From Alphaproteobacteria bacterium (lineage in GTDB: Bacteria > Pseudomonadota > Alphaproteobacteria > Micropepsales > Micropepsaceae), in the NCBI GenBank assembly GCA_028871795.1, contig JAGWMG010000003.1, positions 124,001 through 188,000 on the forward strand: a stretch of DNA of 64,000 nt, in the 5' to 3' direction. Made by a program: the position numbers and the translations under genes. The notes under the pieces were generated by a model. That model was given only the letters and a program-made list of their open reading frames with translations. It did not search any database and was not told the origin of the DNA. Below, piece after piece: positions 2,462 to 29,632 of this stretch; the first letter of the stretch is position 1, and each line of letters starts with the position of its first letter.

Positions 2462-3343
2462 TCAGTAAGATATTTTCACGCCGAACGTGAACCGTTGCGA
2501 GGCATGGCCGCCCATGCCGGCGACGTTGTTCTCATACGCCAGAACGGGTTCGATGCTGTCGGTCAAATGGAACTTCGCTTCGATTCCCAGGCGCAGGAGA
2601 TTGTAGAGTTCGCCGCGGTCGCGCAGATCGTTATAACCGCCCATTCGCGCGCTGCGCACGAAGAACAGTACTCCGGCCAAGCGCACACGCTGTATAGCCG
2701 GTACGCTGATTTCAAGATGGGTGCGGAACTGCGTCACTCCGCCATCAAGAAAGATGCGCGGTTCGACATCGAGGTTGCCCGACAGTTGCCAAAGGCCCGG
2801 ATTGAAGCCGATGCGGTACATCGGCTCGACGGCCCAGTGGCCATTGTCGAGCGCCGGACTCTTCGCGGCCGAACTGCCTGGAAAAACCACACCGAGCCCT
2901 ATGGAATCCGCAAAATCCTTGTCTTGGGTCAGCCCGTAGTTCAGCCCGATGCGTTGCTCCTGCAGCCCGTCATTGGTGTCGACGACGGTGACGCCGTTCT
3001 TCACCTTTGAGCTATATAGAAAGCCATACCGCAGATCGTAATCGAGCGAGAATCCGTCCCCCAGTCCGTGCTCGCCGAGGAGGCGGATTTGGGTTCCGTG
3101 CTCCTTCGTACTCGGAAGCGTGGCGGTGGAGAACGAGTCCTGCGGAAAAGACTGATCGGCGAAAAAATAACGCACCATCGGCTCCAACTCGCCGGCGCCG
3201 GCCGCGGGAATCCACGCGCCGGCACGGGCGGGGCCGCAGATCAGTGCGGGCAGTGCCGCACAGACAGCAGCCGTTATGCGCAGGAAGCGCAACAAATCGT
3301 AAGCGGCGTTGCGCGCCTCGGCATATTCATAAAGAGTAACCAT
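2462..3343 (-). CDS. outer-membrane beta-barrel protein at the end of the glycan operon
   Basis: This 293-residue protein has an N-terminal extension of about 20 residues followed by a hydrophobic signal segment (RITAAVCAALPALICG) with a likely cut near ARAGA. The rest is alternating amphipathic strands with many Tyr/Phe/Trp residues, and the protein ends in Tyr (FTFGVKISY), as outer-membrane barrels do. I do not recognise a named family. The start abuts the TAG of the ABC exporter gene upstream (stop 3344-3346), with a GAGGAT ribosome-binding site inside that gene's end. The position as last gene of the glycosyltransferase/exporter operon suggests it may help a glycan or glycolipid reach or cross the outer membrane. 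That role is inference. Confidence 0.7.
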   Translation of the reverse strand: MVTLYEYAEARNAAYDLLRFLRITAAVCAALPALICGPARAGAWIPAAGAGELEPMVRYFFADQSFPQDSFSTATLPSTKEHGTQIRLLGEHGLGDGFSLDYDLRYGFLYSSKVKNGVTVVDTNDGLQEQRIGLNYGLTQDKDFADSIGLGVVFPGSSAAKSPALDNGHWAVEPMYRIGFNPGLWQLSGNLDVEPRIFLDGGVTQFRTHLEISVPAIQRVRLAGVLFFVRSARMGGYNDLRDRGELYNLLRLGIEAKFHLTDSIEPVLAYENNVAGMGGHASQRFTFGVKISY

Positions 3344-5200
3344 CTAAGCGATCCTCGCCCGGCTCGGCACGGCAGTTACATCGCCTGCTCCTGATGCCGC
3401 CGCTCCGCCGGCAAGGCTGAGCCAGAGCCTCTCATATACCCCCGCCTCCTTCAGCAGCTGCGCATGGCCGCCGCGCTGCACGATACGGCCCTGGTCGAGA
3501 ACCAGGATTTCATCGGCTTCGCTCACGGTTTTCAGACGGTGCGCGATGATAAGTGCCGCGCGATTGGCCGTCAAACGTTTCACGGCGGCCATCAACCGGC
3601 GTTCGGTCACTGCGTCAAGATTGCTGCTCGGTTCGTCCAAGATCACGATGGGAGCGTTGCTCAACATCGCGCGTGCGATTGAGATGCACTGGCGCTGGCC
3701 GCCGGACAGCGTCTGACCGCGCTCGCTGATGATACAATCATAGGCGCCGGTCAAGCGCTTGATGATCTCGTCGACGCCCACGGCTTTGGCGGCGCGAATG
3801 GCGTCGTCGCGGCCGGCACCCTCCAATCCGTAACAGATGTTTTCCCAGACACTCGCCCGGAAGATCACCGGCTCCTGCAGCACCAACGCAACCTGCCGGC
3901 GCACGAAACCCAGGTTGAGCCCGCGCACGTCGCGCCCGTCAAGCAGAACGCGGCCCAGCACCGGATCGTAGAAGCGCGAGATCAAGCCCGCGATTGTGCT
4001 CTTGCCGGCGCCTGTGGGTCCCACCAATGCGACGGTCTTGCCGGCCTCCAGGCGGAACGAAATATCCTTCAGGATGTTGGGTCCAGGCTTGTAGCCAAAG
4101 GTGACGTCTTCGAATTCGATGCGCCCCGTACAGTCGCGCGGCACCAGCGCCAAAGGCGATTCGACGACGGATGGCGCCTCGAAGAGGTATTCGGCGATAC
4201 GTTCCACCGCGACGGAAGCGCGGCCGACGATGCGCGCGGTTTTCGCAATGCGGCGCGTGGGGGCGGTAAGTGACCTAAAATAGGCCAGGAACACCAACAT
4301 CTCGCCGGCCGTGATCCGCCCATCGAGCACGCGGATGGCGCCATACCAGGCGATCAATCCGGTGGCGGCGGCGACGGCGAGCGTCAGCGCCGGGGAGAAC
4401 TGCGCCTGCAGATCGTTGGTATCGCTGGAGACGCGAAAGATCTTGCGAGCACAAGCGGCAAAGCGTCGTTCCTCGTGGTGTTCGCGGCCATAGGCTTGGA
4501 CGAGCTGCACGCTGCCAAGCACCTCCTGCGCCATGCTCCACAGATCGCCCTCGAACTGGCGGACACGGCACAGAGCCCGGCGCAGCAGGCCCGAATAGAC
4601 CTGAACGATGACGAAAAGGACGGGGATGCTGACCAGCACCACCAAGCCATAGCGCCAATCGACACTCAGCATGATCGCGGTGATGCCGCCCATGACCAGA
4701 ATGTGCTGGATGAAATCGCCGCCAACGGCGGTGACGAGATCCTGCAGCTTCTGAACGTCGCCGCCCAGCCGCGACATCAGATCGCCGCCGCGGTGGCGGC
4801 GATGGAAGTCCATGGACAGTTTTTGCAGGTGCGCGAAAAGATCGTGGCGCAGCGCAAAGACCAAACGCTGGCCGGCATCGAGGAACAATCGGCTGCCGGC
4901 GTAATCGAGCAACGCATCGGCGAGGCCGAGGCCCAGCGTCAGCAGACAAAGCACGCCCAGCAGCGCCACGCTGTGCGTTCGCGCATCCGGCAGCAATCCG
5001 GCCAACGCCGGAGGCAGCGATTTCTTGTAGATGACGTTGTCGACGATGAACTTCAGCGGCCATGGCACCAACGTAAGCACCCCGGCGCGCATCGCCATGG
5101 TGACGGTTCCCACCCCGAGCGAGCGCCATTGCGGCGCCAGATAGCACAGAATCCAACGCCGATGCGCGGGGACGGCCGGGTTTTCCGATCGTGCGCTCAT
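3344..5200 (-). CDS. MsbA-like ABC exporter (fused membrane and ATPase domains)
   Basis: This 618-residue half-transporter has an N-terminal six-helix ABC type-1 membrane domain and a C-terminal ATPase. The ATPase carries Walker A (GPTGAGKST), a Q-loop (LVLQEPVIF), the signature LSGGQRQ and Walker B (IVILDEPSSNLD), followed by the switch His in IIAHRLKT. The signature and Walker regions are intact, so the pump should be active as a homodimer. The ATG at 5200 overlaps the TGA of the upstream glycosyltransferase (ATGA), favouring it over GTG at 5209. With three glycosyltransferase genes in front and a barrel protein behind, the likely cargo is a lipid-linked glycan or glycolipid. The substrate cannot be read from sequence. 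Confidence 0.92.
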   Translation of the reverse strand: MSARSENPAVPAHRRWILCYLAPQWRSLGVGTVTMAMRAGVLTLVPWPLKFIVDNVIYKKSLPPALAGLLPDARTHSVALLGVLCLLTLGLGLADALLDYAGSRLFLDAGQRLVFALRHDLFAHLQKLSMDFHRRHRGGDLMSRLGGDVQKLQDLVTAVGGDFIQHILVMGGITAIMLSVDWRYGLVVLVSIPVLFVIVQVYSGLLRRALCRVRQFEGDLWSMAQEVLGSVQLVQAYGREHHEERRFAACARKIFRVSSDTNDLQAQFSPALTLAVAAATGLIAWYGAIRVLDGRITAGEMLVFLAYFRSLTAPTRRIAKTARIVGRASVAVERIAEYLFEAPSVVESPLALVPRDCTGRIEFEDVTFGYKPGPNILKDISFRLEAGKTVALVGPTGAGKSTIAGLISRFYDPVLGRVLLDGRDVRGLNLGFVRRQVALVLQEPVIFRASVWENICYGLEGAGRDDAIRAAKAVGVDEIIKRLTGAYDCIISERGQTLSGGQRQCISIARAMLSNAPIVILDEPSSNLDAVTERRLMAAVKRLTANRAALIIAHRLKTVSEADEILVLDQGRIVQRGGHAQLLKEAGVYERLWLSLAGGAAASGAGDVTAVPSRARIA

Positions 5201-6450
5201 GCGGCACACATCGTGTCGATGTGCCGCTGGGCTTCGTCGATGACGCGGCCCGCTGCCCGCTGCCAGCTGAAATCCGAGAGCGCATGCGCACGCGCAGCCG
5301 CGCTCATGGTTCGGCGGCGTGCCGGATCGCGGACCAGATCGAGCGTCTTGGCGATGAAATCGGCTGCGTCGCCCGGCGTGAAAAGAAGACCTGTCTTGCC
5401 GTGGTCGACGAGCAGTTCGAGCTGGCCGATACGGGGAGCGATGACCGGCGTGCCGGCCGCCAGCGACTCCACCACCTTCAGCGGCGAGAAATAGAAATCG
5501 CTGCGGGTCAGATAGGGCGCCACGCTGATGTCCATTGCCGCCAGATATGAGGGAATTTCCGCATGCGGAATGCGCCCGCTGAAGACTGCGCGATCTTCGA
5601 GGCCCTGCGCGGCGATTCCTTCCTTGGCGGCTTCAAGTTCCGGTCCTTCGCCGACACAGAGCAGCCGCACTCCGCGATGCTGCCGCGCCATGGTGGCAAA
5701 GGCGTCGATCAGAAAATCGACGCCGTGCCACGGCTTGAAGCTGCCGATGAACCCTACGACGGGATCCGCACCGAGGCCCAGTTTGCGGCGAACGGCCTCG
5801 CCGCCGGCATCGGGATGGAAATGGGTCGTGTCCACGCCGTTCGGAATCGTCAGTATGCCTTCTCGCGGGATACCGCAGGAGGCGACATAGGCGGCAACTT
5901 CTTCCGAGACGGCGATGATGCTGTTGGCGCCATGGAAGGAAGCGCACTCCGATGCAGCGGCCACGGACTTCAGCACAAGGCCGCGAAACTGTTCCTGTTC
6001 GCGGATCAACGGTGCATTGACCTCGAGAAGTCTTGGTACGGCAAGCATCTGCGCCAGCGCCGCACCGGCGCAATGAAACAGAGCATAGCGTTCGTAGATC
6101 GCATCCGGACGGAAATCGATGCCGTCAAGCGCTGCTCGCACGCGCCTGCAAAAGCCGCGGTCATAACTCAGCCGCCCAAGTTCCCGGCGCAGGACCCGGT
6201 CTTCAAGTGCGGTCACAGGAAGAAACCGCGCCATACATTCACGTTCGAGCAGAAATTCGTCGGGGTCTGGGGGTATTTCAATCAGCCGTACAGGCGGCGG
6301 CGAGTTGCCCTCGCCCAAAGACGCACAGATGAGAGCAACCTCATGGCCCTGATGCGCCAGCGCGGTCACAAACTCTCGTACGTGGACCGACGCACCCTTG
6401 TCGCCTAGAACCGGAATGCCGCGATCGGGGTTCAGGTAGAGGAGCTTCAT
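5197..6450 (-). CDS. family 4 glycosyltransferase (GT-B fold)
   Basis: This 417-residue retaining-type glycosyltransferase begins MKLLYLNPDRGIPVLGDKGA, with the Gly/Ser-rich acceptor loop typical of GT4 N-domains. The C-terminal domain has VGFIGSFKPWHGVDFLIDAF, LLCVGEGPELE and the E-x7-E region SPLKVVESLAAGTPVIA that binds the nucleotide sugar. A GTG at 6459 would give a GTGA overlap with the preceding gene. I chose the ATG at 6450 because the family usually starts at MKLL; the two differ by three codons. It lies in a chain of stop/start overlaps with genes on both sides and so is surely cotranscribed with them. Sugar and acceptor are unknown. Confidence 0.9.
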   Translation of the reverse strand: MKLLYLNPDRGIPVLGDKGASVHVREFVTALAHQGHEVALICASLGEGNSPPPVRLIEIPPDPDEFLLERECMARFLPVTALEDRVLRRELGRLSYDRGFCRRVRAALDGIDFRPDAIYERYALFHCAGAALAQMLAVPRLLEVNAPLIREQEQFRGLVLKSVAAASECASFHGANSIIAVSEEVAAYVASCGIPREGILTIPNGVDTTHFHPDAGGEAVRRKLGLGADPVVGFIGSFKPWHGVDFLIDAFATMARQHRGVRLLCVGEGPELEAAKEGIAAQGLEDRAVFSGRIPHAEIPSYLAAMDISVAPYLTRSDFYFSPLKVVESLAAGTPVIAPRIGQLELLVDHGKTGLLFTPGDAADFIAKTLDLVRDPARRRTMSAAARAHALSDFSWQRAAGRVIDEAQRHIDTMCAA

Positions 6451-6455
6451 GGCAC

Positions 6456-7787
6456 TCACTCGGCTGCCTCTGCCGCAGGCCTGGTCTGCTGCGGTGAAAA
6501 ATGGATGATGTTTCCGCTTTCATGCCCGTCACCGCAGGCGCAGTCCTGCATCAGATCGCGCAACGCCTTGGTCGTTTCCCGGCAGTCGAAATCCCGTTCC
6601 AGTCGCGCGCGCGCGTTGCACGCGAGCTTGGCCCCGGTCTGCGGATTGCCGATGAGGTGGCGCAAGGCCGCGGCCAGAGCCGTTGGCGACTCGGATGGCA
6701 CGAGAAGACCCGTGATTTTGTTCTGCACCAGCTCGGGGATTCCGGATACCGACGTGGAGACGACGGGAACGCCGACCGCCATCGCTTCGGCGATCACATT
6801 GGGAATACCGTCGCGGTCGCCGTCCGCAACGATGCGCGGCGGCAGTGCGAAAATGTCCGCCTGGCGGTAGAACGCGATCAGGTCGGCGTGGGTCATCGCT
6901 CCCCTCAGGGTGACGAGACCGGAAAGACCGCGCCGCGCGATTTCGGCATCGAGAGCCTCGCGCAGGGGACCTTCGCCGACAATGGCGCAGCGGAAGCCGA
7001 TCCCGTCCTGGTGCAGTATCTGGCAGGCGGCGATCAGATCGCCAAAACCTTTCTTCGGCACCAGCCTTCCCACCGAAAGGATCAGCGGCGGCCGGCGATT
7101 GCTCTGCGCCATCGCAGGATCGGCGCGCACGGCAAAGCGAGCAAGATCGATGCCGTGATAGACAAGGCGGATCTTTCCATGATCGCGTTTCGGCAGGATG
7201 CTTTTCAAATAATCGACGTTGTAGCCGGTGCAGGTCGCGACAAACGCGGCGGCGCGGGCACGCCGGCGTATCACGCGCGGCGAGGTGAGAAACAGATCCT
7301 TCGCATGCGTGGTAAAGCTGAACGGAATGCCCGTCATGGCGCTGGCAAACCAGGCCGCTGCCGCCGGCGCATTGGCAAAATGCGCATGGATCAACATGAC
7401 CTTCCCGCGCCGGCAGCGGTCGGCGATGAATCCCGCCCGCAGGAATTGCTTCCATGGAGCGAAGGGGCGACGAGACTGCAGCGACGAATAGACGGCGCGG
7501 AACAGCGCATGGGCATAGCGTAACGGCGCGCGCCGGGCGCACGCTCCATGGGCCTGCGCCAGCAACTTTGCTTTCGCAAACACGCCGGCCGGAAGATGGT
7601 GCAGCGGCGCCTTGATCTGTCTCACCATGGGATGGTGCGGCGGCGGCTCGGGCGGCAGCAGCGAAAAGAGTTCCAGCCTCGCGCCCAACCCTTCCATCAC
7701 TGCGATCTCGTTCAGGATGAAGGTCTCGCTGAGGCGCGGATAGCGTTTCATCACATAAGCGATGCGGGGCGAAAGAGGAGCGGTCAT
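6456..7787 (-). CDS. family 4 glycosyltransferase
   Basis: This protein of 443 residues starts MTAPLSPRIAYVMKRYPRLS. The PRLSETFILNEI motif is common in GT4 enzymes of exopolysaccharide clusters. The C-domain contains LILSVGRLVPKKGFGDLI, AIVGEGPLREAL and the donor-binding segment GIPNVIAEAMAVGVPVVST. The start at 7787 is fixed by the ATGA overlap with the TGA of the upstream gene, although the open frame runs further back to 8393. The last 40 residues are Cys/Pro-rich and outside the conserved fold. It probably adds a sugar to the same glycan as its neighbours; donor and linkage are not predictable here. Confidence 0.9.
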   Translation of the reverse strand: MTAPLSPRIAYVMKRYPRLSETFILNEIAVMEGLGARLELFSLLPPEPPPHHPMVRQIKAPLHHLPAGVFAKAKLLAQAHGACARRAPLRYAHALFRAVYSSLQSRRPFAPWKQFLRAGFIADRCRRGKVMLIHAHFANAPAAAAWFASAMTGIPFSFTTHAKDLFLTSPRVIRRRARAAAFVATCTGYNVDYLKSILPKRDHGKIRLVYHGIDLARFAVRADPAMAQSNRRPPLILSVGRLVPKKGFGDLIAACQILHQDGIGFRCAIVGEGPLREALDAEIARRGLSGLVTLRGAMTHADLIAFYRQADIFALPPRIVADGDRDGIPNVIAEAMAVGVPVVSTSVSGIPELVQNKITGLLVPSESPTALAAALRHLIGNPQTGAKLACNARARLERDFDCRETTKALRDLMQDCACGDGHESGNIIHFSPQQTRPAAEAAE

Positions 7788-9097
7788 TCGGCTGCCTCCA
7801 ATTTCCCCGTCTCTGCCTGGGTGACGGCTTCGAACAGATCGCCGACGCGCGACGCGCCGTCGAGATCGAGTGCATAGCGCGGCGCGCGCGACTTTGTTCC
7901 AGCCAACGCCGTTTCGACGAGCCGAGCCAGGCGCACATCCAATTCGGGGCCCTGCTCGAGGGACAACACCAGTCCCAACTGCGCCAGCATCGCTGCGCGC
8001 ATCCGCTGTTCGGCCCTGGGCGCCGCGCGCGGCACCAGGATGGCGGGCTTTCCGCTCGCCACGATTTCGACACTGGTGTTGTAGCCGCCCATCGCGATCA
8101 CCAGATCCGCCTGTTCCAGCATGGTCGGCAGATCGGTCGTCGACGAAATGATCTCGATGTCCGGATCGCCGGCGGCCAGGGCATCCAGCGCCCGCCGCTG
8201 CGCCGCCGACATCAAAGGTCCCGTCACAATCCGCGAGCGCGCGAGACCGGCCGGCAATATCGCCAGTGCCTTGAGGTACGCCTCCATCAGGAAATAGCCG
8301 TCTTCGCCGCCGCCCGCGGTAACCAGGAATACCGGCTGTGCGCCGATCGGCGCCGACCCGGCGCGCTTGCGCGGTCGTGCGACATAGCCGCAATAGCTGA
8401 GCTTCGCGGCGACGCGCGCCGGAATGCCGTAATTCTCCACGACGTCGAAGAGCAAGCGGCTACCGTAGACGAGTATGCGGTCGTACAGATTTTCCAGCAG
8501 CGGGATAATGCCCTGCTGATCCCAGATTTCACGAACCGTTCCGGGGCTATCGATGATGTCGCGCAAGCCCAGCATGACCTGCGTGCCGGGAATCTCCCGG
8601 CGGATAAAAGCCAATGTCGACAGCAATTCGGCGTTCATGCCCGCAGGCGCATGATCGACGAGGAAAATGTCGGGGCGTTCTGCGATGACGGCTCCCAGAA
8701 TCAGCGCCTCGCGATAGGCCTTCACCAAGCCGAAGGGCAGGGTCGAATCGCGCGGCGCATAAGTCTCCACGCCCGTCTTCACCACCGGCGGAAGGGCGGT
8801 GACATCGAGCCCTTCAGGCAGCGTCCACGAACCGATCACCGGCGAGCCCGTGAGGAGGCGGACGGAGAAAGCCGGCTCGCGGGCGAGCAGATGTTCGGCG
8901 ATCGCCAGATTGCGACGCAGATGACCCAGACCATAGGTGTCGTGCGAATAGAGAAACACTCTGGGCGGGCGCGCCAGCGGACGGCGGTGCGGCCTGCCAT
9001 TCCGGACTTCGCCGATTTCGCATCTGCGGGGGCGGAGATAATCGTCGTTCCCGCTGTCGCTCACGAGCCGGTGGTCCATCACGAGAAGTAACCTCAT
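7784..9097 (-). CDS. predicted glycosyltransferase, MurG/GT28-like, first gene of the glycan operon
   Basis: From ATG 9097 the protein has 437 residues. It shows the RVFLYSHDTYGLGHLRRNLA motif of the predicted glycosyltransferase group related to MurG/GT28, and near the C-terminus the donor site ADLVIAMGGYNTSVEI followed by GKPAILVPRAAPRAEQRMRA. The start is uncertain. A GTG at 9235 is in frame, and homologues often begin only just before RVFLYSHD; none of the candidates has a good ribosome-binding site. It leads the operon running to 2462. The two-component genes at 9343-11477 lie just upstream in the same direction and may or may not share a transcript. Confidence 0.8.
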   Translation of the reverse strand: MRLLLVMDHRLVSDSGNDDYLRPRRCEIGEVRNGRPHRRPLARPPRVFLYSHDTYGLGHLRRNLAIAEHLLAREPAFSVRLLTGSPVIGSWTLPEGLDVTALPPVVKTGVETYAPRDSTLPFGLVKAYREALILGAVIAERPDIFLVDHAPAGMNAELLSTLAFIRREIPGTQVMLGLRDIIDSPGTVREIWDQQGIIPLLENLYDRILVYGSRLLFDVVENYGIPARVAAKLSYCGYVARPRKRAGSAPIGAQPVFLVTAGGGEDGYFLMEAYLKALAILPAGLARSRIVTGPLMSAAQRRALDALAAGDPDIEIISSTTDLPTMLEQADLVIAMGGYNTSVEIVASGKPAILVPRAAPRAEQRMRAAMLAQLGLVLSLEQGPELDVRLARLVETALAGTKSRAPRYALDLDGASRVGDLFEAVTQAETGKLEAAE

Positions 9098-9342
9098 CTG
9101 ACGCCGCAAGGGCGCATCGAAACATTGCAGGATCGCAAGATCCGGCGTGGCTTTCGGCGATGCGGCGGTGTTTTCCGATTGGCTATCAGCCGCGATCCAT
9201 CCGCGAACAGGGATAGAGCGATCCGCTGACGGCACGCTGACGGAGGAGGTTACAGTGTTGTAAACCGACGAACGCGATGTATAGCTCGTCGCTCACGTGA
9301 CTGGAATTTGATGCAAATGTTACGCGAGCCGCATGACCGCGG

Positions 9343-10803
9343 TCACGCGACGTAAACGTCCTGTGACGGATTGCGTACGGCGCGCGAACGCGCAAGGCCC
9401 AGGATCAGCCGCGTGCCGCCGTTCGGGCGATCTTCCAGATGCACGCTGCCGTCATGGAGCTGGGCGATGCGGCGCACCAGCGCAAGGCCCACACCGGCGC
9501 CATTGCCGGTTCGATGGTCGGCACGCCAAAAACGTTCGAACACAACATCGCGCTGCGCGGGGGGGATGCCGGGCCCGCAATCTTCGACAATGACCGTCGG
9601 CCCTGGATCGACCTTGACCGTGACCGTTGTATTCGGATGCGAATATTTGAGTGCATTGTCGACGAGGTTACGGATCGCAATCTCAATCAGAGCGGCGTTT
9701 CCCGGTATGATCATCTGGGAAGCTGCGCAATCGAACTCGATCAGCCGGTCGTGCGCAATCGCCTTGACGACGGCGTCCTCGCAAACCTTCCGAGCCGCGG
9801 CGACGACGTCGACATCATCGAGTTCGTGCGCCATGACGTCTTCCGCTTGAGCAAAATGTAACAGCTCGTTTACGAGACGGCCAAGTTCCTCCATCTCGGT
9901 CTTGATCCGCTCGCGCGCCGGACCGTGGGGCAGCTGCGAAGCCTCCAACAACAGCACCGCCAGCGGCGTGCGCAGTTCGTGCGCGGCATCGGAGGCGAAC
10001 TGCTTTTGCTGTTGAAGCGAGCGCTCGAGCTTCTCCAGCATGGAGTTGATCGCGGCCGCGACATCGGCAAACTCCTGTACCATGCCCTGCTCGGAAACCG
10101 GCATCAGCGTCTGTCCGCGCGCCACCGCCGCCCCTATCAGGTTGGCGTCCCGGGAGAGCAACCGCAGCGGCCGCAGAGCTGCGCGCGTCGTCAGAAATAT
10201 CGCCAATGTCAGCGCCGGCACGATAAAGAGCACGGGAAACAGGACATGGCTCATCAACTTGCCGACAATGATGCCGGCACCGGCCCAGGCGGGATCGCCG
10301 ATCATATAGACCTGCACCCAGTATTTGTGCCCGGAGAGAACGACACGATGGATCAGCAACGAAACGACGTGATTTCCCGACAGGTGCGCCGGTCGAAAAC
10401 GCTCGAAACCCTCCAGAAGGTCGCTGCCCACGGCTTGCACGTCGTGATCGGCGTCGTGATCGGAGTCGATCGGCGCCGCGTATTGCACCGCCGGCAACCA
10501 GCGCGCGTTCGCAGAGGCAAGAATGCGGCGCCTGCTCAGCAGGCGGCGGTCAAACACGCGGAATCCGTACGCCTGCGGATAATCGCGATAGAGCGGAAGC
10601 TCTGCGGGATTTTTGCCTTTAACGAGAGCTCCGGCGATTGCGAGCGCGTTGGCATGCAGCGTGGCTTCGCGTAGCTGCGGCGTAGCGGATATATAGCGGA
10701 CGAAAAATACGAACGTCAGCAAAAGGGAGACGGACACGGAGACCGCAGCCATGCGAACGGCCAGAATACGCGACAGCGATGTCGGTACTGTGCGCTTCAG
10801 CAC
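9343..10803 (-). CDS. sensor histidine kinase (EnvZ/QseC-type)
   Basis: This inner-membrane kinase has 486 residues from a GTG start that overlaps the last codons of the response regulator gene (stop at 10797-10799). Membrane segments lie at about 14-38 and 186-206, with a periplasmic sensor region of about 145 residues rich in Asp/His around 113-121 (SDHDADHDV). A HAMP-like region follows. The dimerisation box SDAAHELRTP holds the phosphate-accepting His275. The ATP-binding lobe has the N box (NLVDNALKYS), G1 (EDCGPGIP) and G2 (GNGAGVGLALV). All catalytic motifs are present. The Asp/His cluster could bind a metal ion, which is speculation. The partner is the regulator immediately upstream. 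Confidence 0.93.
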   Translation of the reverse strand: MLKRTVPTSLSRILAVRMAAVSVSVSLLLTFVFFVRYISATPQLREATLHANALAIAGALVKGKNPAELPLYRDYPQAYGFRVFDRRLLSRRRILASANARWLPAVQYAAPIDSDHDADHDVQAVGSDLLEGFERFRPAHLSGNHVVSLLIHRVVLSGHKYWVQVYMIGDPAWAGAGIIVGKLMSHVLFPVLFIVPALTLAIFLTTRAALRPLRLLSRDANLIGAAVARGQTLMPVSEQGMVQEFADVAAAINSMLEKLERSLQQQKQFASDAAHELRTPLAVLLLEASQLPHGPARERIKTEMEELGRLVNELLHFAQAEDVMAHELDDVDVVAAARKVCEDAVVKAIAHDRLIEFDCAASQMIIPGNAALIEIAIRNLVDNALKYSHPNTTVTVKVDPGPTVIVEDCGPGIPPAQRDVVFERFWRADHRTGNGAGVGLALVRRIAQLHDGSVHLEDRPNGGTRLILGLARSRAVRNPSQDVYVA

Positions 10804-11477
10804 GTCGCACGCTCCGTCAAAAGATAGCCGATGCCGCGCATTGCGACGATACCCACGGTCGCGCCGGCAACCTCCAAGCGCCGGCGCAATCGCGAAACCG
10901 CAGCCTCTACGGCGTTGTCCGTAACTTCGCTGTCGAGCGAATAAACGGCCGAGTCCAGTTTTTCCCGGCGCAGAACCCGCCCTTGCTGCGACAGCAGCGC
11001 TGAAAGCACGCTCAATTCCCGGCGAGGAATGGCGACCGCCCGACCTGCAACCGTCAAGGTCAGCGAACCCGTGTCCAAGCGAACATTGCCCGCGGTCAGG
11101 ACGTTGTCCCGTATTTGGCGGGAACGGCGGCCGAGGGCCCGGACCCGCGCAATCAGTTCGTCGTCCGAGAACGGCTTGACGATATAGTCGTCGGCGCCTG
11201 CGTTCAGTACCTGCACGCGGTTGACGACGTCGCTGCGCGCGGTCACGACAAACACGACGGCATCGCTTTGGCTGCACCGGATCGCATTGAGAACGTCGCG
11301 GCCGTCGCCGTCCGGCAATGACAGGTCCAATAGCACGATGTCGTAATCGACGAGGCTGAGCGCCGCGCGTGCTTCCTCGATGCTGCCCGCAGCATCGACG
11401 ATATGCCCGCTGTCGGCCATGAGCTTCACCATCAGTGTCGCCAGCCGCGCGTTGTCTTCGATTATCAATAACCGCAT
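10797..11477 (-). CDS. OmpR/PhoB-family response regulator
   Basis: The protein has 226 residues starting MRLLIIEDNARL at ATG 11477; the frame extends upstream to 11537 but the added residues are not family-like. The receiver domain has the acidic pair Glu7/Asp8, phosphoacceptor Asp51 (IVLLDLSLPDGDG), Thr79 and Lys101 (YIVKPF). The C-terminal winged helix spans about 125-220 with the RRELSVLSALL and TDNAVEAAVSRLRRRL helices. It should bind DNA when phosphorylated by the kinase encoded in the overlapping downstream gene. A TATAAC hexamer on the minus strand (11493-11488) may be its -10 element, implying a very short leader. Targets are unknown; the glycan operon beyond the kinase is one candidate. 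Confidence 0.94.
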   Translation of the reverse strand: MRLLIIEDNARLATLMVKLMADSGHIVDAAGSIEEARAALSLVDYDIVLLDLSLPDGDGRDVLNAIRCSQSDAVVFVVTARSDVVNRVQVLNAGADDYIVKPFSDDELIARVRALGRRSRQIRDNVLTAGNVRLDTGSLTLTVAGRAVAIPRRELSVLSALLSQQGRVLRREKLDSAVYSLDSEVTDNAVEAAVSRLRRRLEVAGATVGIVAMRGIGYLLTERATC

Positions 11478-11928
11478 AGACAACGAGGTTATAGAATGCG
11501 TCGAATTAGCAAAAGCAAAAAAAGCGCTCCGGCCCACTTTTTTTCAAGATAGGTTCCGTAGCGGAAGAAACGTTTGCACGGCTGGTTATCGGCCACCTCG
11601 AGCCCAAGCACATGACGTGCAGTCGGTGAGCACTTCGAGATACGCCCAAGTCAGGAACTGCTCGCGCGCAACCGACTGCACCAACGTCGTACTGCCAAAA
11701 GAAGACGGCCAACCCGCCGGGTCGACAAAATAGAACCGTCGGTATGTGCCAAGATGGGTCATCGCGGCAATGGCGGAATTCGGCCGCACGCTGTGAGACA
11801 CGTCCGATCCGCGAATTTCAAGGGACGACACCGCCGGCACCGCCGGCGATACGGGAACCGCCGGTCCCCGTATCGCCATTTGCGCCTGGCCCGCAGACCG
11901 GCCTGCGGCGTCAGCGTTGGTCGGCGTC
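11478..11928. other. intergenic stretch without a convincing gene
   Basis: These 450 bases separate the response regulator and the anchor-C protein. Short open frames occur on both strands, but none has a credible start, ribosome-binding site or recognisable product. The part next to 11477 should hold the regulator's promoter. The part next to 11929 holds an inverted repeat described separately. Confidence 0.6.
11845..11877 (-). terminator. GC-rich hairpin downstream of the anchor-C gene
   Basis: GGCGATACGGG (11845-11855) and CCCGTATCGCC (11867-11877) form a perfect 11-bp stem around an 11-nt loop. It lies 52 bases after the stop of the minus-strand gene ending at 11929. No T-run follows on either strand, so intrinsic termination is uncertain. 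It may instead protect the transcript end. Confidence 0.35.
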
Positions 11929-13334: not shown

Positions 13335-13463
13335 CTTCCAAAAGCAAAGAGTTCGAACGGATCGGCATCTCTCAATGGAGGTGGCGTGGTCTCGTTCCTC
13401 GCAAAGCGACTTCCGACGTGTTTGCGGAAGCTCGACCTGCAATCTCGAATAGTTGGAGTGGCA

Positions 13464-15707
13464 ATGCTTCGTTCTTTCCTGCCGTCCTCGGTCGCGGCGG
13501 CGGCGGTTCTGATCGCCGGCACTTCCGCCGAAGCGCAACAAGCGACGCAGCCGCAGCAGTTTTACAGTCCAGCGTCGTCCGGGAATGTCGAGACCGTCAC
13601 GATCACGGCGCAGAAACTGGCCGAGGCGCGCGTCGGCATTCAGACGCAACTCGGCGCCTCGACCTATACGATTTCCTCGGACGACATCAAGGCGACGCCC
13701 GGCGGCGACAATACGCTGCTCAACCAGGTTATCCTGCAGGCTCCCGGCGCGGCGCAGGATTCCTTTGGCCAGTTGCACATCCGCGGCGAACACAATGGCC
13801 TGCAATACCGGCTGAACGGCATCATCATCCCGGAGGGCATTTCGGTCTTCGGCCAGACGCTCGACCCCAGACTCGCCGACAGCGTCCAGCTCATCACCGG
13901 CGCACTGCCGGCGGAATATGGCGACCGCACGGCCGGCATCATCGACGTCAGAACAAAAACCGGGCTGTTCAATCCCGGCGGCGAGATCAGCATGTATGGC
14001 GGCAGCCATGGCGAACTTGCGCCGAGTCTTTCCTATGGAGGTTCGGCGGGAAATTTCAATTATTTCGTCTCGGGCGATTATCTGACCAACACATTGGGCA
14101 TCGAGTCGCCGGACGGCAAGAACGACCCGAGCCACGACCGCACCAAGCAATGGCACGGCTTCGCTTATCTGCAGGACATTCTGGACCAGCACAGCTCCGT
14201 AACCGCGGTCCTCGGCACGTCCAACGACGTGTTCCAGATTCCGAACCGGTCGGGCCTGCAGCCTTCAGGGATCGGCGGCATCGTCGGATTGGGTCCAATG
14301 GACCCCGGCAGCGGCACTTTCGTGCTCCGGGCAAACGGGCGGACAACCTTTCCTTCCGTGCAACTTGACGAACGGCAGCGCGAAATCACGCACTACGCAA
14401 TCGTCAGTTATCTGCGCTCGCAAGGCGCCTTCGATTATCAGGTGTCGGTGTTCGGGCGCTATTCGAGCCTGAGCTTCACGCCGGGCGCAAATGTCGGCGA
14501 CGTCCTTTACAATGGTCTGGCGCAGACGGCCTACAAGCGCGACGCGGCTTACGGGCTGCAGGTCGAAGGCGCTTATCATTTCGGCGACACGCACACGATC
14601 CGTTTCGGCGCCGTCTATCAAGCCGACGACCTCGCAAGCAATACGTCGTCGCTGGTGCTGTCGACCGCGCCGGGCTCCGCCGCCAATCCCAATCCGAACC
14701 CTTTGTGCGCCGATCCGGCGAACACCTGTCAGATTTCCGATGTTCCGCTCTCGATCATCGACAATGGCACGAAACACGCGTGGAGCTACGGGCTTTACGT
14801 CCAGGACGAGTGGAAGATCCTGCCGGCCGTCACCATCAACTATGGCCTGCGCTACGACCGGTTCAGAGCCTTCGACGCGGAAAACCAAATCAGCCCCCGC
14901 GCCAACGTGGTTTGGACGCCGTCGGACACGACGACAATTCACGCGGGCTACGCCCGTTATTTCTCGCCGCCGCCGATCGAATTGGTCGCGGCGACGGATA
15001 TTGCGCTGTTCGACAACACGACGGCGGCCGCCAGCCACACCGATACCACGCCCAAGGCCGAACGCGCCGACTACTACGACGCCGGCATCAATCAGACGCT
15101 GTCCGAAGCCGTATCCCTGGGCTTGGACGGCTTTTACAAGGCGTCGCACGACCTGATCGACGAGGGCCAGTTCGGCGCGCCGATCGTCCTGACCCCCTTC
15201 AACTACAGGAAGGGACGCCAATACGGGCTTGAATTCACCGCAACCTACGACAGCGGCGATTTCTCGAGCTATCTCAATGCCGCTTACGAGCGCGCCGACG
15301 GCACGAACATCGTGTCCAGCGAATTCAATTTCAGCCCCGGCGATCTCGGTTACATTGCGGCGCACACCATTCCGCTCGATCACCAGCAGATCGTATCCGT
15401 GTCGGCGGGCGCGTCGTACAAGTTGCGGGAGGACACGCGGATCAGCGCCGACCTCCTCTACGGCTCCGGTCTCAGAACAAGCCTGGTCCATCCGAACGAC
15501 AGTCACGTGCCAGACTATGCGCAGGTCAATCTCGGCGTGAGTCACGACTTCAAGCTCGACTTCGCCGGAGGCTTCACCGCGCGCTTCGATGTCATCAACG
15601 TCTTCGACGAGAAATACGAAATCCGCGACGGAACGGGTGTCGGCGCCGGCGCGCCGCAATTCGGTCCCAGGCGCGGTTTCTTCGTCGGCCTGTCAAAGGC
15701 TTTGTAA
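13464..15707 (+). CDS. TonB-dependent outer-membrane receptor
   Basis: The protein has 747 residues starting MLRSFLPSSVAAAAVLIAGT, with GGAG upstream; the frame opens earlier, at 13386, but lacks a signal there. A signal peptide ends near AEAQQ. The plug domain contains VETVTITAQK (TonB-box-like), DNTLLNQVILQAPG, LHIRGEHNGLQYRLNG and LITGALPAEYGDRTAGIIDV. The rest is a 22-strand-type barrel with recurring GLRYDRF, HAGYARYFSPP and VINVFDEKYEIRDG motifs. It ends in Leu rather than Phe. Substrate cannot be deduced. The upstream DUF2946-like protein points to a metal complex, whereas the following galTK genes would fit a galactoside. Confidence 0.93.
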   Translation: MLRSFLPSSVAAAAVLIAGTSAEAQQATQPQQFYSPASSGNVETVTITAQKLAEARVGIQTQLGASTYTISSDDIKATPGGDNTLLNQVILQAPGAAQDSFGQLHIRGEHNGLQYRLNGIIIPEGISVFGQTLDPRLADSVQLITGALPAEYGDRTAGIIDVRTKTGLFNPGGEISMYGGSHGELAPSLSYGGSAGNFNYFVSGDYLTNTLGIESPDGKNDPSHDRTKQWHGFAYLQDILDQHSSVTAVLGTSNDVFQIPNRSGLQPSGIGGIVGLGPMDPGSGTFVLRANGRTTFPSVQLDERQREITHYAIVSYLRSQGAFDYQVSVFGRYSSLSFTPGANVGDVLYNGLAQTAYKRDAAYGLQVEGAYHFGDTHTIRFGAVYQADDLASNTSSLVLSTAPGSAANPNPNPLCADPANTCQISDVPLSIIDNGTKHAWSYGLYVQDEWKILPAVTINYGLRYDRFRAFDAENQISPRANVVWTPSDTTTIHAGYARYFSPPPIELVAATDIALFDNTTAAASHTDTTPKAERADYYDAGINQTLSEAVSLGLDGFYKASHDLIDEGQFGAPIVLTPFNYRKGRQYGLEFTATYDSGDFSSYLNAAYERADGTNIVSSEFNFSPGDLGYIAAHTIPLDHQQIVSVSAGASYKLREDTRISADLLYGSGLRTSLVHPNDSHVPDYAQVNLGVSHDFKLDFAGGFTARFDVINVFDEKYEIRDGTGVGAGAPQFGPRRGFFVGLSKAL

Positions 15708-15791
15708 GATGCCTATTATGGCTCGCTGCTCCAACAAGAAAGGCGCGCCGCCGCGTCCGCAAACCGACCAAGCCCGACCGGCCAGCCTCCG

Positions 15792-16865
15792 ATGACGCAC
15801 GGCAAAACGATTTCCAATACCGGACGATCCACCTTCACCATGCCCGATGGGCGGATGCTGCACCTCTATGGCGCGTATTCGGGTACGCCGGCATGGCCAC
15901 TCGGAGCAGAACTTCACGAGAGAGATTTTTCGCATCGCCGTTGGCATCCCGTTCGGCGCGAATGGGTGGTCTACTCCGCCCACCGCCAGACGAGAACTTA
16001 CAAGCCCGCGTCGAACACATGCCCTCTTTGTCCTGAGGCGTCCGATGGCGAGGTGCCGGTAAAGGATTTTTCGATTGCGGTGTTCGACAACCGCTTTTCA
16101 TCGTTCCAGAAAACATGCCCGAAGCCGGATCCCATTCCGGGTCTCGATTTGTCCGTCGACAGCGCCGCGGGAAATTGCGAGGTCGTCGTCTACTCCGCCG
16201 ACCACAAGGCGTCGATGTCGACCTTGTCCCAGGATCGGCGCGAACTTCTCGTCAAAGTGTGGGGCGATCGCGTGCGCGCGCTGATGCGGATGCCCGCCGT
16301 GCAAGCCGTCATGCCATTCGAGAATCGCGGAGAAGAAGCCGGCGTCACGCTGCATCATCCGCATGGACAGATTTATGCGTTTTCCTATCTGCCGCCCGTC
16401 ATCGAGACGATGGCACAGAGTTTTCGGGAAGGCTATGAACTGTCGAAGCTGACATCCTCGGCGATGCACGAAATCGCTCAAGCCGAGAGCATGGCGGCGC
16501 TCGTACCGCCCTTCGCGCGCTTTCCCTATGAAGTCTGGATCGTTCCGAAACGGTTTCGACCGTCGCCAGGCGACCTCGGCGAAAACGAAGTCAAAGACTG
16601 CGCGCGCCTGCTGGCGCTCGTTGCGAAGAAATACGACATCTTTTTCAAACGCGCTTGCCCTTATGTGATGATCGTCTATGTCGCGCCGCGCGGCATGGAA
16701 GAATACTTCCCGTTCCATATTCAGTTCTACCCGCTTCTGCGCACCCCGCAGAAACTGAAGTTTCTTGCAGGCTGCGAGCTCGGCGCCGGTTCTTTCCTGG
16801 CGGATTTGGTGCCCGAAGAGGCCGCTCGGTCTCTTCGCGATCTAAGACTGGAGGACATCCCATGA
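15792..16865 (+). CDS. galT: galactose-1-phosphate uridylyltransferase
   Basis: GalT exchanges UMP between UDP-glucose and galactose 1-phosphate in the Leloir pathway. This 357-residue protein has the catalytic motif HHPHGQ at 188-193, where His191 is the expected nucleophile, and Cys77/Cys80 (CPLC) as zinc ligands. ERDFSHRRWHPVRREWVVYS near the N-terminus and the C-terminal EEYFPFHIQFYPLLR segment also match the family. Length is normal. The start lacks a strong ribosome-binding site. The gene ends in an ATGA overlap with galK and lies 84 bases after the TonB receptor. No galE or mutarotase gene is nearby. Confidence 0.95.
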   Translation: MTHGKTISNTGRSTFTMPDGRMLHLYGAYSGTPAWPLGAELHERDFSHRRWHPVRREWVVYSAHRQTRTYKPASNTCPLCPEASDGEVPVKDFSIAVFDNRFSSFQKTCPKPDPIPGLDLSVDSAAGNCEVVVYSADHKASMSTLSQDRRELLVKVWGDRVRALMRMPAVQAVMPFENRGEEAGVTLHHPHGQIYAFSYLPPVIETMAQSFREGYELSKLTSSAMHEIAQAESMAALVPPFARFPYEVWIVPKRFRPSPGDLGENEVKDCARLLALVAKKYDIFFKRACPYVMIVYVAPRGMEEYFPFHIQFYPLLRTPQKLKFLAGCELGAGSFLADLVPEEAARSLRDLRLEDIP

Positions 16866-17944
16866 CCGGATTCACCGCCAAGGCGCCGGCCCGCGCGAAT
16901 ATCATCGGCGAACATACCGATTACGCGGCCAATCAAGGGCATGTCCTGCCCACGCCGCTTCCGTTCCACACATGGGCCGCCGTCGCAGAGAGGGCCGGCG
17001 CTGCAGGACAGCTGAGCATTTCAAGCGAGAGTTTCGGCAACCAGCCATATGACCGACGCGCGGACGACGAGCCGCGCGGCCACTGGACGGACTACGTCAT
17101 CGGTTGCGTCCGCGTCTTCTCAAAGAAGACAAAGCTTCCGGCGCTCGAAATCAAGATCAAAAGCGATGTGCCGATCGGGTGCGGGATTTCGAGTTCCGCG
17201 GCGTTGTGTGTTGCGGTTATCCGCGCCTTGAAGGGACTCACTGGCGCCGATCCGGGGGACGCGCAGATCGCCCTCATGGCGCACGAAGCCGAGCACGATT
17301 TTGTCGGCGTTCCCTGCGGGAAGATGGACCAGTTTGCCGCATCGCTGGGGCGTCCGGGGCAAGCGCTTCTTTTGAACACGAAGACGCTGACCACCCGCCA
17401 TTATCCTCTGGCGGCCAATACCGCGATCATGCTGGTGAATTGCGGCAGGAAGCACGATCTCGCCAAGGGCGGCGGCTACAAGCAACGCGTGGCGGAGTGC
17501 ACCGAGGCCCGCAGGCTGCTGGGCGTCGGCACCCTCTGCGAGCTTGGCACCATGGACCTCGACCGTCTTTCCGCATTGCCGGATCTCACTGCGCGCCGCG
17601 CGCGCCACGTCATCACGGAGAATCTGCGAGTGCTGGAATTCGTCGCCGCCCTGGAAGCTGGCGACCTGGAACGGCAGGCCGACCTGCTTGCCGCCAGCCA
17701 CGCCTCCCAGCGCGACGATTTCGAAGTTTCGATCCCGGAGATCGATGCGCTGGTTGAATCGTCAAAGCGCTTCGGCATCCGCGGGGCGCGCATCGTCGGG
17801 GGCGGCTTCGGTGGGGCGATCATTGCGCTCGTGCCGCGCGAACAGGCGGTTGCCTGGTGGTCCTTCGTTGCGAAGGAAAATCCGAAAAGCCAGCTGATTT
17901 CGACGTACGCCCTGAAGAATGACGAAAATGAGTATGCCGCGTGA
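16862..17944 (+). CDS. galK: galactokinase
   Basis: GalK phosphorylates galactose with ATP to galactose 1-phosphate, the substrate of GalT. The 360-residue protein is a GHMP kinase. It has the galactose-binding GEHTDY motif (here followed by A instead of N), the phosphate-binding loop PIGCGISSSAAL and the C-terminal GGGFGG motif. KMDQFAASLG carries the catalytic-loop region with the Asp. The start is fixed by the ATGA overlap with galT, so the upstream open frame to 16655 is not used. The two enzymes should be translationally coupled. Slightly short compared with E. coli GalK (382) but complete. Confidence 0.94.
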   Translation: MTGFTAKAPARANIIGEHTDYAANQGHVLPTPLPFHTWAAVAERAGAAGQLSISSESFGNQPYDRRADDEPRGHWTDYVIGCVRVFSKKTKLPALEIKIKSDVPIGCGISSSAALCVAVIRALKGLTGADPGDAQIALMAHEAEHDFVGVPCGKMDQFAASLGRPGQALLLNTKTLTTRHYPLAANTAIMLVNCGRKHDLAKGGGYKQRVAECTEARRLLGVGTLCELGTMDLDRLSALPDLTARRARHVITENLRVLEFVAALEAGDLERQADLLAASHASQRDDFEVSIPEIDALVESSKRFGIRGARIVGGGFGGAIIALVPREQAVAWWSFVAKENPKSQLISTYALKNDENEYAA

Positions 17945-18441
17945 CCACGGCGCCGACCTTGTCTCCGGCGCTGCCGGCCGGGCGTCCGTCGGCGAATTTC
18001 ACGCACAGCTACTGCACCACTCCACTCCGCGGGATGCGACCACCATTCCGCCGCGTAATGTACAACGTACGCGTCGGACTCTGCGGCCGGAGCTATCTTG
18101 CCGCGACAACGTTAACGTTAAGGTGCCAAATGGAGTTTCGCGAAAAGAGTGTGCATAGAAATTAGAAGTATTCTTTATGCCGCCTTTTGCGCTGGCGTAA
18201 CAGGCGGATACCGGTATCGGCGGCTTTTCTTGGTTACCGGCGGCCCAAGGAAAACATCCTTTTACGTGCGTTTGACATGGTCAATTGCGTCGCAAAATGT
18301 TAATCGTAAACGAATGGTTTGTGCTCGGATTTAGTCGCATCGGGGTGGCGTTGCACGTTGGGGGATGGCGTGGTGGGTACAAGGCACGACGCGCGTTTGT
18401 CACCGAACGAGCGGCGGAAAACGGGACCCGGCAGGGGCTCC
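17945..18441. other. intergenic region upstream of the Sel1/beta-helix operon
   Basis: About 497 bases with no gene I can support. It becomes A+T-richer after 18100. It contains the 12-bp palindrome AACGTTAACGTT (18108-18119). A TTGACA hexamer at 18272-18277 sits within a small inverted repeat (TTGAC-ATG-GTCAA). A promoter for the downstream operon is likely here, but no good -10 at standard spacing was found, so no promoter is called. Confidence 0.45.
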
Positions 18442-21764: not shown

Positions 21765-22063
21765 CCGCGCCGAATAAACTTGCCCTAGGTGCAACGGCGA
21801 AGCGGCACCCGTTAACCTCTGCTTCCTGCCCCGAAGCCGAAAAATGGGCCGTTCGGCGGCGGCCGGCAAACCCGGGGATTCACCGACAAATATCGCAAAT
21901 CCGCTGCCTCGGGGCTGGCGTCCGTCACGGCACGCCGAATGCCGGCCGCTTGCAGATTCGCGTTTCTTTTAGGCATGATGTCAGCCTGACGCATCGTACC
22001 ACGGCCGGGCGAGGCGGTGCGCTCGTGGGATCATGTCCGGCAGGTGCGGCATCGGCATAGCTC
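21765..22063. other. intergenic region upstream of the cold-shock gene
   Basis: About 300 bases. No supported gene. The 3' part should contain the promoter and the long untranslated leader that cold-shock genes often have. I did not find a clear RNA fold or thermosensor by eye. Confidence 0.4.
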
Positions 22064-22669
22064 ATGGCTAACTTCGACAATGACGGCTCGCGGTCCTTGG
22101 CCCAGGCTTCCGCGAAGGGCACGGTCAAATGGTTCAACGCGGCTAAAGGATACGGCTTCATCACCCTGGAAAACGGCGGAGACGCATTCTGTCATGCCTC
22201 GGCGCTGGCGGCGCTCGGCACGACCAATCTTCCACCGGGTGCTACAATCGTTTGCGATCTGCAGGAATCCCCGCGCGGGTTGCAGGTCGTTGTCGTCCAT
22301 AACGTGGATACCAGCACGGCGGACCCCAATCCGCCGCGGCGTCCGCGCCGCGAGTTCGGCGACGGCGGGCGAGGCGGTTTCGGCGGCGGCGATCGCTACA
22401 GCGGCGGAGATCGTTTCGGCGGGGATGGCGGCGCACGCGACCGGGACAGTGGACCGAGCGGGCCGATGGTCGAAGGCAAGGTCAAATTCTTCAATGACCA
22501 AAAAGGCTTCGGCTTCATCATGCCCGATAATGGAGGCGGGGACGTCTACATTCATGCGAGCGCCTTGCGGCGGTCCGGCGTCACGGCCCTGGAACCGGAA
22601 CAGCGCATCCGGTTCTCGACCCGCCAGGGCATGAAGGGCGTCGAGGTGGATCGCGTCGAAGTGATCTGA
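22064..22669 (+). CDS. two-domain cold-shock protein
   Basis: The protein has 201 residues with two cold-shock domains. The first (about 17-80) has KGTVKWFNAAKGYGFITLE, with the RNP1 motif KGYGFI; in RNP2 the usual VFVH is AFCH. The second (about 134-200) has VEGKVKFFNDQKGFGFIMPD and the RNP2-like DVYIHAS. They are joined by a Gly/Arg-rich linker (RGGFGGGDRYSGGDRFGG) of the RGG type. The layout, two CSDs with a disordered linker, is typical of alphaproteobacterial Csp proteins that bind single-stranded RNA and act as chaperones. The gene is single and is followed by a good intrinsic terminator. Confidence 0.92.
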   Translation: MANFDNDGSRSLAQASAKGTVKWFNAAKGYGFITLENGGDAFCHASALAALGTTNLPPGATIVCDLQESPRGLQVVVVHNVDTSTADPNPPRRPRREFGDGGRGGFGGGDRYSGGDRFGGDGGARDRDSGPSGPMVEGKVKFFNDQKGFGFIMPDNGGGDVYIHASALRRSGVTALEPEQRIRFSTRQGMKGVEVDRVEVI

Positions 22670-22684
22670 CGCCTTGACGCCGAG

Positions 22685-29631: not shown

Positions 29632-29632
29632 A

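Follow-up and report, generated by a model that had tools for sequence, protein, structure and literature searches.

A conserved operon of three glycosyltransferases, an ABC exporter and an outer-membrane barrel in an alphaproteobacterium, and its probable role in glycan synthesis and export

A five-gene operon of an alphaproteobacterium of the family Micropepsaceae encodes three glycosyltransferases, a single-chain ABC exporter and an outer-membrane barrel. On balance we favour the reading that it is a self-contained and regulated pathway for the assembly and export of a short glycan, displayed at the surface or secreted and probably uronate-bearing in most relatives, and that this probably mobile gene set is switched, in the clade of this bacterium, by the adjacent two-component system. 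The operon lies in a stretch of 64,000 nucleotides (assembly GCA_028871795.1, contig JAGWMG010000003.1, positions 124,001 to 188,000), hereafter called the window, and all coordinates are counted from its first letter. The genes, their order and their strand are as an initial annotation had described them, that is, one GT28 and two GT4 glycosyltransferases, an MsbA-like exporter and a barrel joined by overlapping or abutting codons; the two-component system that it placed directly upstream is also there, with the histidine kinase (HK) and the response regulator (RR) on the same strand. The features are as follows:

10797..11537 (likely start 11477), minus strand: OmpR/PhoB-type response regulator (PF00072, 4.9e-24; PF00486, 1.1e-15)
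9343..10797, minus strand: membrane sensor histidine kinase (PF00512, 5.8e-11; PF02518, 2.5e-24; alignment of 8 orthologues)
9226..9241, minus strand: predicted operator GTCAGCGTGCCGTCAG, a direct repeat of 11-base period that lies 128 bases ahead of the GT28 start codon ATG
7784..9097, minus strand: GT28 (MurG-like) glycosyltransferase, operon gene 1 (PF04101, 2.5e-8)
6456..7787, minus strand: GT4 glycosyltransferase a (GT4a), EpsE/WcaL-like (PF00534, 4.5e-34; NF041876, 192.5 bits, below the cut-off of 400)
5197..6459, minus strand: GT4 glycosyltransferase b (GT4b) (PF13692, 1.1e-30; TIGR04063, 154.8 bits, below the cut-off of 442)
3344..5209 (likely start ATG at 5200), minus strand: MsbA-type ABC exporter, two domains in a single chain (PF00664, 9.5e-45; PF00005, 1.3e-30; TIGR02204, 408 bits, and TIGR02203, 381 bits, both below the cut-offs)
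2462..3343, minus strand: outer-membrane barrel with an N-terminal signal-like helix and a predicted 12-strand COG4313/FapF channel fold (27-sequence alignment; AlphaFold2 pLDDT 88; structural matches)

Transcription runs on the minus strand from 9097 to 2462 in the order GT28, GT4a, GT4b, ABC and barrel. The first three junctions are 4-base overlaps (ATGA for GT28/GT4a, GTGA for GT4a/GT4b and ATGA for GT4b/ABC, the last presupposing the ABC start at 5200 and not that at 5209), and the ABC stop codon directly abuts the ATG of the barrel. In the relatives, where start codons were picked automatically, 4-base overlaps were found in 37/49, 23/37, 25/37 and 14/31 of the measured junctions, in the same order; a 971-base gap in the junction row of L058 is spurious, as the GT28 start is broken there. 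For GT28 itself, a start at 9097 is preferable to that of the longest ORF at 9235, since a conserved repeat occupies 9226-9241. The protein carries the GT28 C-terminal domain (PF04101, 34.5 bits against a gathering score of 22), which places it in the GT28 family, and 23 aligned sequences share a mean column identity of 54%; the family is presumably the one named COG4671. The best-known members of the MurG-like enzyme family act on membrane lipids. In the proposed pathway the GT28 enzyme would begin by attaching a sugar to a lipid carrier, the two GT4 enzymes would extend the sugar chain, the ABC exporter would carry the product across the inner membrane, and the barrel would take it, presumably outward, either across the outer membrane or into it. 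In the window clade the adjacent two-component system would switch the operon from the sequence GTCAG-N6-GTCAG, which is conserved there.

A GT28 scan of genome contigs gave 52 loci from about 50 genomes, since L018/L021 and L031/L050 are pairs from the same metagenome-assembled genome (MAG); L001-L006 are fragments that came from whole-genome matches and are left out of the locus counts, of which L004 enters one junction count. Tblastn matches for GT28, GT4a, GT4b and ABC were obtained in 40 of the 52 loci, and all four genes are truly present in 39, as L056 has no separate GT4b by tblastn, its GT4a and GT4b matches being one gene. The barrel is found in 31 of those 40 loci, or in 31/35 after removal of the five barrel-less loci that stop at a contig edge (L009, L010, L024, L031 and L036), and a barrel of the window family was not found in L033, L041, L045 and L056. 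In L013, the ABC and barrel genes are separated by a relative of UDP-Glc dehydrogenase. Conservation of the gene order extends to other genera and classes, which is more than chance. The neighbourhood comparison proposed with the initial annotation finds the GT28-GT4a-GT4b-ABC-barrel order again in other lineages, and the barrel, which might have been unrelated, accompanies the operon there. No homologous operon already assigned to a known polysaccharide was found in the literature covered, outside which most subscription journals lie.

It had also been stated that no polymerase, Wzx flippase or sugar-nucleotide gene is present. This holds for the window ORFs scanned, since no Wzx flippase, Wzy polymerase or Wza/Wzz was detected among the seven operon and two-component proteins and 20 other window ORFs, nor any of these among the recurrent neighbours annotated in relatives, and tblastn found no relative of UDP-glucose dehydrogenase or histidine phosphatase in the window. 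The lack of a sugar-nucleotide gene, however, is true only of the window clade, whereas UDP-glucose 6-dehydrogenase and histidine phosphatase follow the operon elsewhere. Outside the window clade, a histidine phosphatase lies 3' of the barrel, or of ABC where the barrel is missing, in 30/30 proteobacterial loci with room for it, and a full-length UDP-glucose-dehydrogenase relative lies downstream in 24/28 loci with room (L014 has a fragment only, and L017, L030 and L035 have none adjacent). Within the window clade neither gene follows the barrel in the window, L008 and L011, which have room; L008 has a histidine phosphatase past the two-component system on the other strand. The source genome's own UDP-Glc dehydrogenase copy is on another contig, and a close copy is absent in 3/7 window-clade genomes examined, a set that does not include the L010 genome. 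These findings make UDP-glucuronate probable in the majority of carriers and a candidate in the window's own. That the dehydrogenase is not universal, and that the phosphatase does not adjoin the operon in the window or L011, counts against the favoured reading, as does the lack of any barrel of the window family in L033, L041 and L045. By eye, the histidine phosphatase of L038 has no evident signal peptide.

Most of the carriers bear names that point to acid habitats, the habitat being taken from record names and not measured. Thirty-eight of the 52 loci belong to Acidiphilium, Acidocella or MAGs with mine-site names; in full, the names comprise 3 Acidiphilium, 6 Acidocella, 29 of mine-site style (e.g. 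ZJ5.bin18), 7 REEB, 2 BWSM, 1 fen MAG and 4 others. The codes DBS and WY are mining areas in an acid-mine-drainage sediment study (PMC12153355), which fits five loci, and the other names of mine-site form presumably come from the same kind of sample. Several mine-site MAGs share the genus of L014 (L029, L038 and L054) or of L030 (L022, L032, L043, L046 and L047). The barrel family is infrequent and scattered, but comparatively frequent in acidophile genera: its profile matched 2/398 genomes of an even phylum sample, namely the source genome and one weak partial match; a single-sequence search of the source genus and class found it in 4/61 genomes, all in the source genus (37 genomes); and it occurs in 6/200 sampled genomes of the Acidiphilium family, in 6/13 genomes of the L014 genus and in 11/38 of the L030 genus. 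The operon is carried mainly by acid-habitat lineages, and it is therefore likely that its product would protect the envelope against acid and/or metals. Another Acidiphilium glycosyltransferase is linked to metal tolerance in E. coli in a report on Ni resistance (PMC3989265).

The tree of the operon conflicts with that of rplB. In an rplB tree of 24 genomes (those with an rplB match, of 30 searched), the alphaproteobacteria are united with support 100, and six others (L013 and L028, named Gammaproteobacteria, and L018, L027, L040 and L045) group with support of only 50. In the tree of GT28 and GT4a, a window clade (L009, L008, the window and L012; support 98) stands apart, and a clade with support 92 mixes the remaining alphaproteobacterial loci with all six non-alphaproteobacterial loci. 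Since the operon tree rejects a forced alpha/non-alpha split (cost 98.7 log units, AU p 5.1e-5), the operon probably moved horizontally between alphaproteobacteria and other proteobacteria; the tree, with support below 50 at many inner nodes, gives no direction of transfer. An old duplication with losses is a formal alternative that would explain the conflict between the operon and rplB trees.

Plasmids were considered as the present vehicle of the acid clade and set aside, a tblastn search with the barrel against 72,556 plasmids having given no match. A GT28 search of the same plasmids gave only remote relatives, all 271 records (E 1e-20) being below 60% identity and the listed ones at 30-38%. 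Among the remote relatives, the cluster of Paracoccus aestuarii p296221 opens with a divergent two-component pair, which is followed by GT28, GT4, GT4, ABC and one APH-type kinase, and E. coli pCFSAN004180G has GT28, GT4, GT4, ABC, two APH-type kinases, an Alginate_exp barrel and a nucleotide-sugar dehydrogenase between IS remnants. Both clusters have the GT28, GT4, GT4, ABC order of the operon at 31-37% identity, and they share with it, respectively, a neighbouring (here divergent) two-component system and an outer-membrane barrel together with the nucleotide-sugar dehydrogenase; they differ in that APH-type kinases replace the histidine phosphatase and that the COG4313-like barrel is replaced by Alginate_exp in pCFSAN004180G, none being seen in 17 kb of p296221. 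No functional study of either cluster was found in the literature. The stretch from GT28 to the second kinase, a query that leaves the barrel outside, is present in 18/5,426 complete E. coli genomes and is always plasmid-borne. In the Planctomycetota locus L056 the set consists of GT28, GT4 and ABC with an APH-type kinase and a barrel of the alginate-export type. Relatives in Rhizobium, Sinorhizobium, Azospirillum and Sulfitobacter combine GT28 and GT4a with different partners, which across these four genera include a histidine phosphatase, a deacetylase, an annotated polysaccharide lyase or a further GT28-like gene, and because of these other gene sets the rhizobial, Azospirillum and Sulfitobacter products may differ from that of the operon. 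In favour of a link to uronate, nucleotide-sugar dehydrogenase occurs in the E. coli and Sulfitobacter clusters, and a heparinase II/III-like gene in the Manganitrophus cluster. Single-sequence searches with the two alginate-export barrels found no relatives in the other loci up to L058.

Two barrel families, one of them polysaccharide-exporting, thus stand with the same GT-ABC core, and this is the best evidence that the window barrel would be a saccharide exit. The idea of a short glycolipid or oligosaccharide moved by a single ABC exporter and delivered via a dedicated barrel is retained as to glycan synthesis, dedicated exporter and dedicated barrel. As to the product, a secreted or surface uronate-containing saccharide is at least as likely as a simple glycolipid, because the remote relatives are adjoined by barrels of the alginate-export type, a heparinase-like gene, polysaccharide deacetylases and an annotated polysaccharide lyase. 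The earlier interpretation, partly supported in this way, is right in outline and has been improved in regulation, composition, origin and likely chemistry. A wider claim, which we put forward tentatively, is that the gene set represents a distinct mobile route of surface-glycan export, with GT28-GT4-GT4 assembly, an MsbA-type exporter and an exchangeable barrel (COG4313-like in the acid-habitat lineages and of the alginate-export type in the E. coli plasmid and Planctomycetota); this route would not depend on the Wzx/Wzy, Wzm/Wzt or synthase pathways and would have been horizontally acquired as an acid or metal shield with its own sensor. If true, one small cassette would explain a shared surface sugar in unrelated acid-habitat bacteria and would allow the adaptation of an envelope through horizontal transfer to be tested. 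The barrel-family swap in the same cassette would be a direct way to ask how MsbA-type exporters hand glycans to the outer membrane, and the single predicted operator would make the sensor signal easy to seek with a reporter.

The ABC protein is not the usual lipid A exporter. It scores 408 bits as MsbA_rel, 388 as antigen peptide transporter and 381 as MsbA_lipidA (TIGR02203, cut-off 602), all below the cut-offs; the TIGR02203 cut-off is strict, because the MsbA-like protein beside waaA also misses it with 487 bits. It resembles the MsbA and PglK lipid-linked glycan flippases and the NdvA/ChvA glucan exporter in being an ABC exporter with both domains in one protein, but it scores far below all the family cut-offs (317 against 733 bits for the cyclic glucan exporter, NF010178), and its fusion of ABC_membrane and ABC_tran sets it apart from the Wzm/Wzt capsule and O-antigen pathway, which has a separate permease and ATPase with OPX/PCP partners. 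The source genome has a separate MsbA-like gene at another site (L064), with waaA directly behind it, and therefore the operon exporter is an extra one. This finding weighs on a rather unlikely alternative, decoration of lipid A or the LPS core, in which the three enzymes would add GlcA, Man and others in place of phosphate and the ABC protein would be an MsbA paralogue. Man and GlcA do replace phosphates in the lipid A of the Acetobacteraceae Granulibacter and Acetobacter, as has been described (PMC8036547); UDP-Glc dehydrogenase is often linked to the operon; and waaA lies downstream in L033 and L041 (by Pfam), a member of the same cluster downstream in L045 and a lipid A acyltransferase gene upstream in L015. 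On the other hand, an MsbA-like gene and waaA are already present elsewhere in the genome, the barrel family occurs in just the 6/200 Acidiphilium-family genomes mentioned above (a sample which may or may not include Acetobacter and Granulibacter), and LPS has its own outer-membrane route, so that a dedicated barrel would go unexplained.

The window barrel has no Pfam and no NCBIfam match. Its AlphaFold2 model, made from 27 aligned sequences (pLDDT 88.1, pTM 0.78), has 14 strand pieces by DSSP, or about 13 if two short ones are merged. The best structural match is the COG4313 channel 4rl8 (Z 23.0, rmsd 2.9, 240 residues), followed by FapF (Z 22.2, rmsd 2.8, 234 residues), and the acidic-oligosaccharide porins KdgM and NanC match with Z of about 19 over 169-187 residues, in a match list that does not exclude families missing from it. 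The barrel is thus predicted to have the COG4313/Phenol_MetA_deg channel fold; of the 27 aligned proteins, five match PF13557 with E values no higher than 1 (best 1.5e-7), and the window protein is not among them. A WIPAAGxG segment right after the signal-like helix is well conserved in the 27-sequence alignment. The mature N-terminus of the COG4313 channel is folded into the lumen of the barrel in the solved structure (PMC4493636). With the COG4313/Phenol_MetA_deg channels (4rl8, SphA and TcpY) and FapF the window barrel has in common the fold and a conserved segment at the likely mature N-terminus, whereas the identity is 11-12% and the window barrel is genetically tied to glycan genes and not to catabolism or amyloid. 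Since COG4313 channels are described for the uptake of hydrophobic molecules (PMC4493636) and FapF for amyloid secretion, the direction of transport must come from context. Channels that share the fold move cargoes as different as hydrophobics (COG4313), an amyloid protein (FapF) and, in KdgM and NanC, acidic oligosaccharides (PMC4493636), which favours our reading; COG4313, the closest fold, is known for uptake and not for export, which speaks against it.

The same structure paper proposes lateral diffusion of hydrophobic molecules (PMC4493636), and this agrees with a doubtful second alternative, that is, a glycolipid or lipid-linked oligosaccharide retained in the membrane, of the glucuronosyl lipid or glycosylated hopanoid type, which the ABC protein would flip and the barrel would only insert in the outer leaflet by lateral diffusion. 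A MurG-like first enzyme, an MsbA-type exporter, and the lack of a polymerase or outer-membrane export lipoprotein among the recurrent annotated neighbours are also in line with it, but the alginate-export barrels, lyase and deacetylase genes near the remote relatives suggest a soluble or longer saccharide. It is very improbable that the operon tailors a hydrophobic small molecule, with the glycosyltransferases glycosylating a toxic compound and ABC and barrel expelling the product: the best solved relatives of the GT28 profile do include YjiC- and oleandomycin-type glycosyltransferases, the ABC profile is broadly multidrug-like, and an RND pump with its membrane-fusion and TolC-type components is encoded next to the barrel-less L033, L041 and L045, but three different glycosyltransferases in fixed order with a linked UDP-Glc dehydrogenase fit saccharide assembly better, and no tailoring or synthase genes are among the recurrent annotated neighbours.

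The favoured reading, a regulated pathway of glycan synthesis and export, also includes its probable control by the adjacent OmpR-type system, and such control via a conserved upstream repeat is supported by the following comparisons. RR orthologues lie upstream of GT28 in L007-L012, and in L023 the C-terminal part is present at a contig end. When the gap between HK and GT28 was aligned for the window and six loci, a single conserved block appeared, GTCAG-N6-GTCAG. Within 700 bases upstream of the GT28 core this repeat occurs in 9/51 loci (L007-L012, L023, L015 and L048), that is, in the window and in 7/7 loci with an adjacent kinase (L007-L012 and L023) as well as in two others, and the ten repeats of the window and the nine loci are all oriented with transcription. 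All the fetched loci (821,349 bases) contain 12 matches, of which a single one, in L047, lies at another site, about 3.5 kb off on the other strand; L012 has four half-sites in tandem. The shorter repeat was scanned within the window, where it has one match, and the extended motif GTCAGCKTSCSGTCAG was used for the 2.98 Mb source genome, where a single site matches exactly and three more differ at one position; when two mismatches are allowed there are 29 matches against 15 for a reversed control. A TAT-containing hexamer is seen by eye about 10 bases after the repeat in the window, L007, L009, L010 and L011.

In two genomes the repeat goes together with the sensor kinase although the two are not linked. 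No kinase adjoins the repeat in L015 and L048, yet a full-length kinase orthologue (48% and 50%) is encoded elsewhere in the genome beside a matching regulator, whereas in 25 genomes without the repeat upstream of GT28 the best kinase matches are at most 39% identical, mainly over the kinase core. The orthologue is thus present in 3/3 genomes with the repeat (L015, L048 and L023) versus 0/25 without it (Fisher p 3e-4, 28 genomes), but the three form one rplB clade (support 84) and are not independent events. The system is like PhoB/OmpR/PmrA-type regulation in its OmpR-family regulator and in an 11-base-period repeat near a possible -10 element; the half-site here is GTCAG, apparently unlike those of the PmrA and PhoB boxes. 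PmrA is the best NCBIfam neighbour of the RR, and its membership of PmrAB was rejected at 165 against a cut-off of 330. Metal sensing by a D/H-rich stretch in the periplasmic part of the HK was also discarded, as this stretch is not conserved among orthologues. In other loci, where neighbours were annotated by Pfam on one member per cluster, a TonB-type receptor lies upstream in ten, nine of these with an ECF sigma factor and a FecR-like gene, and an NtrC-type pair lies downstream in five.

Further genes recur in the vicinity of the gene for the GT28-like glycosyltransferase in other genomes, at loci of the Acidiphilium-/Acidocella-type (e.g., L029 and L043) and at the Planctomycetota locus L056. 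DUF5666 was found near it at 12 loci and DUF6502 at 8 loci; in L056 the alginate-export barrel and DUF5666 are fused in one protein. At 11 loci there is a second small protein near GT28, which is possibly an outer-membrane protein and gave no match in Pfam.

All three operons lacking the barrel gene (L033, L041 and L045) have as their back-to-back neighbor an RND efflux set, which consists, according to Pfam searches of a single member per neighbor cluster, of two RND pumps, a membrane-fusion protein and a TolC-type protein, and in L033 and L041 the same searches place waaA downstream of the operon. The TolC-type protein might stand in for the missing barrel in these three operons.

In the genome of the operon relative L015, mlaA-like and mlaC-like genes, candidates recognized by eye, adjoin the unlinked two-component system (L096), hinting at outer-membrane lipid stress as the signal.

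The remote relative of the operon on Escherichia coli plasmids, a 7.7 kb stretch of glycan genes (L132/L135), occurs in 18 of 5,426 genomes with at least 99% identity, and the sources given for the ten listed carriers are beef, lettuce, cattle and bovine feces. No function for this stretch was found in the literature, which was searched with a wider aim than the stretch alone.

In the window itself, on the plus strand at 13386-17941, a TonB-dependent receptor gene is followed by one gene that matches galactose-1-phosphate uridylyltransferase and one that matches a galactokinase-like GHMP kinase; this is perhaps a locus for galactoside uptake and use. Clustered within 18319-29658 are a gene for a Sel1-repeat protein, a gene with a weak match to right-handed beta-helix/NosD, and the following exporter:

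27757-29658, minus strand, a further MsbA/NdvA-like ABC exporter besides the operon's own

This cluster is possibly a second envelope-glycan region.
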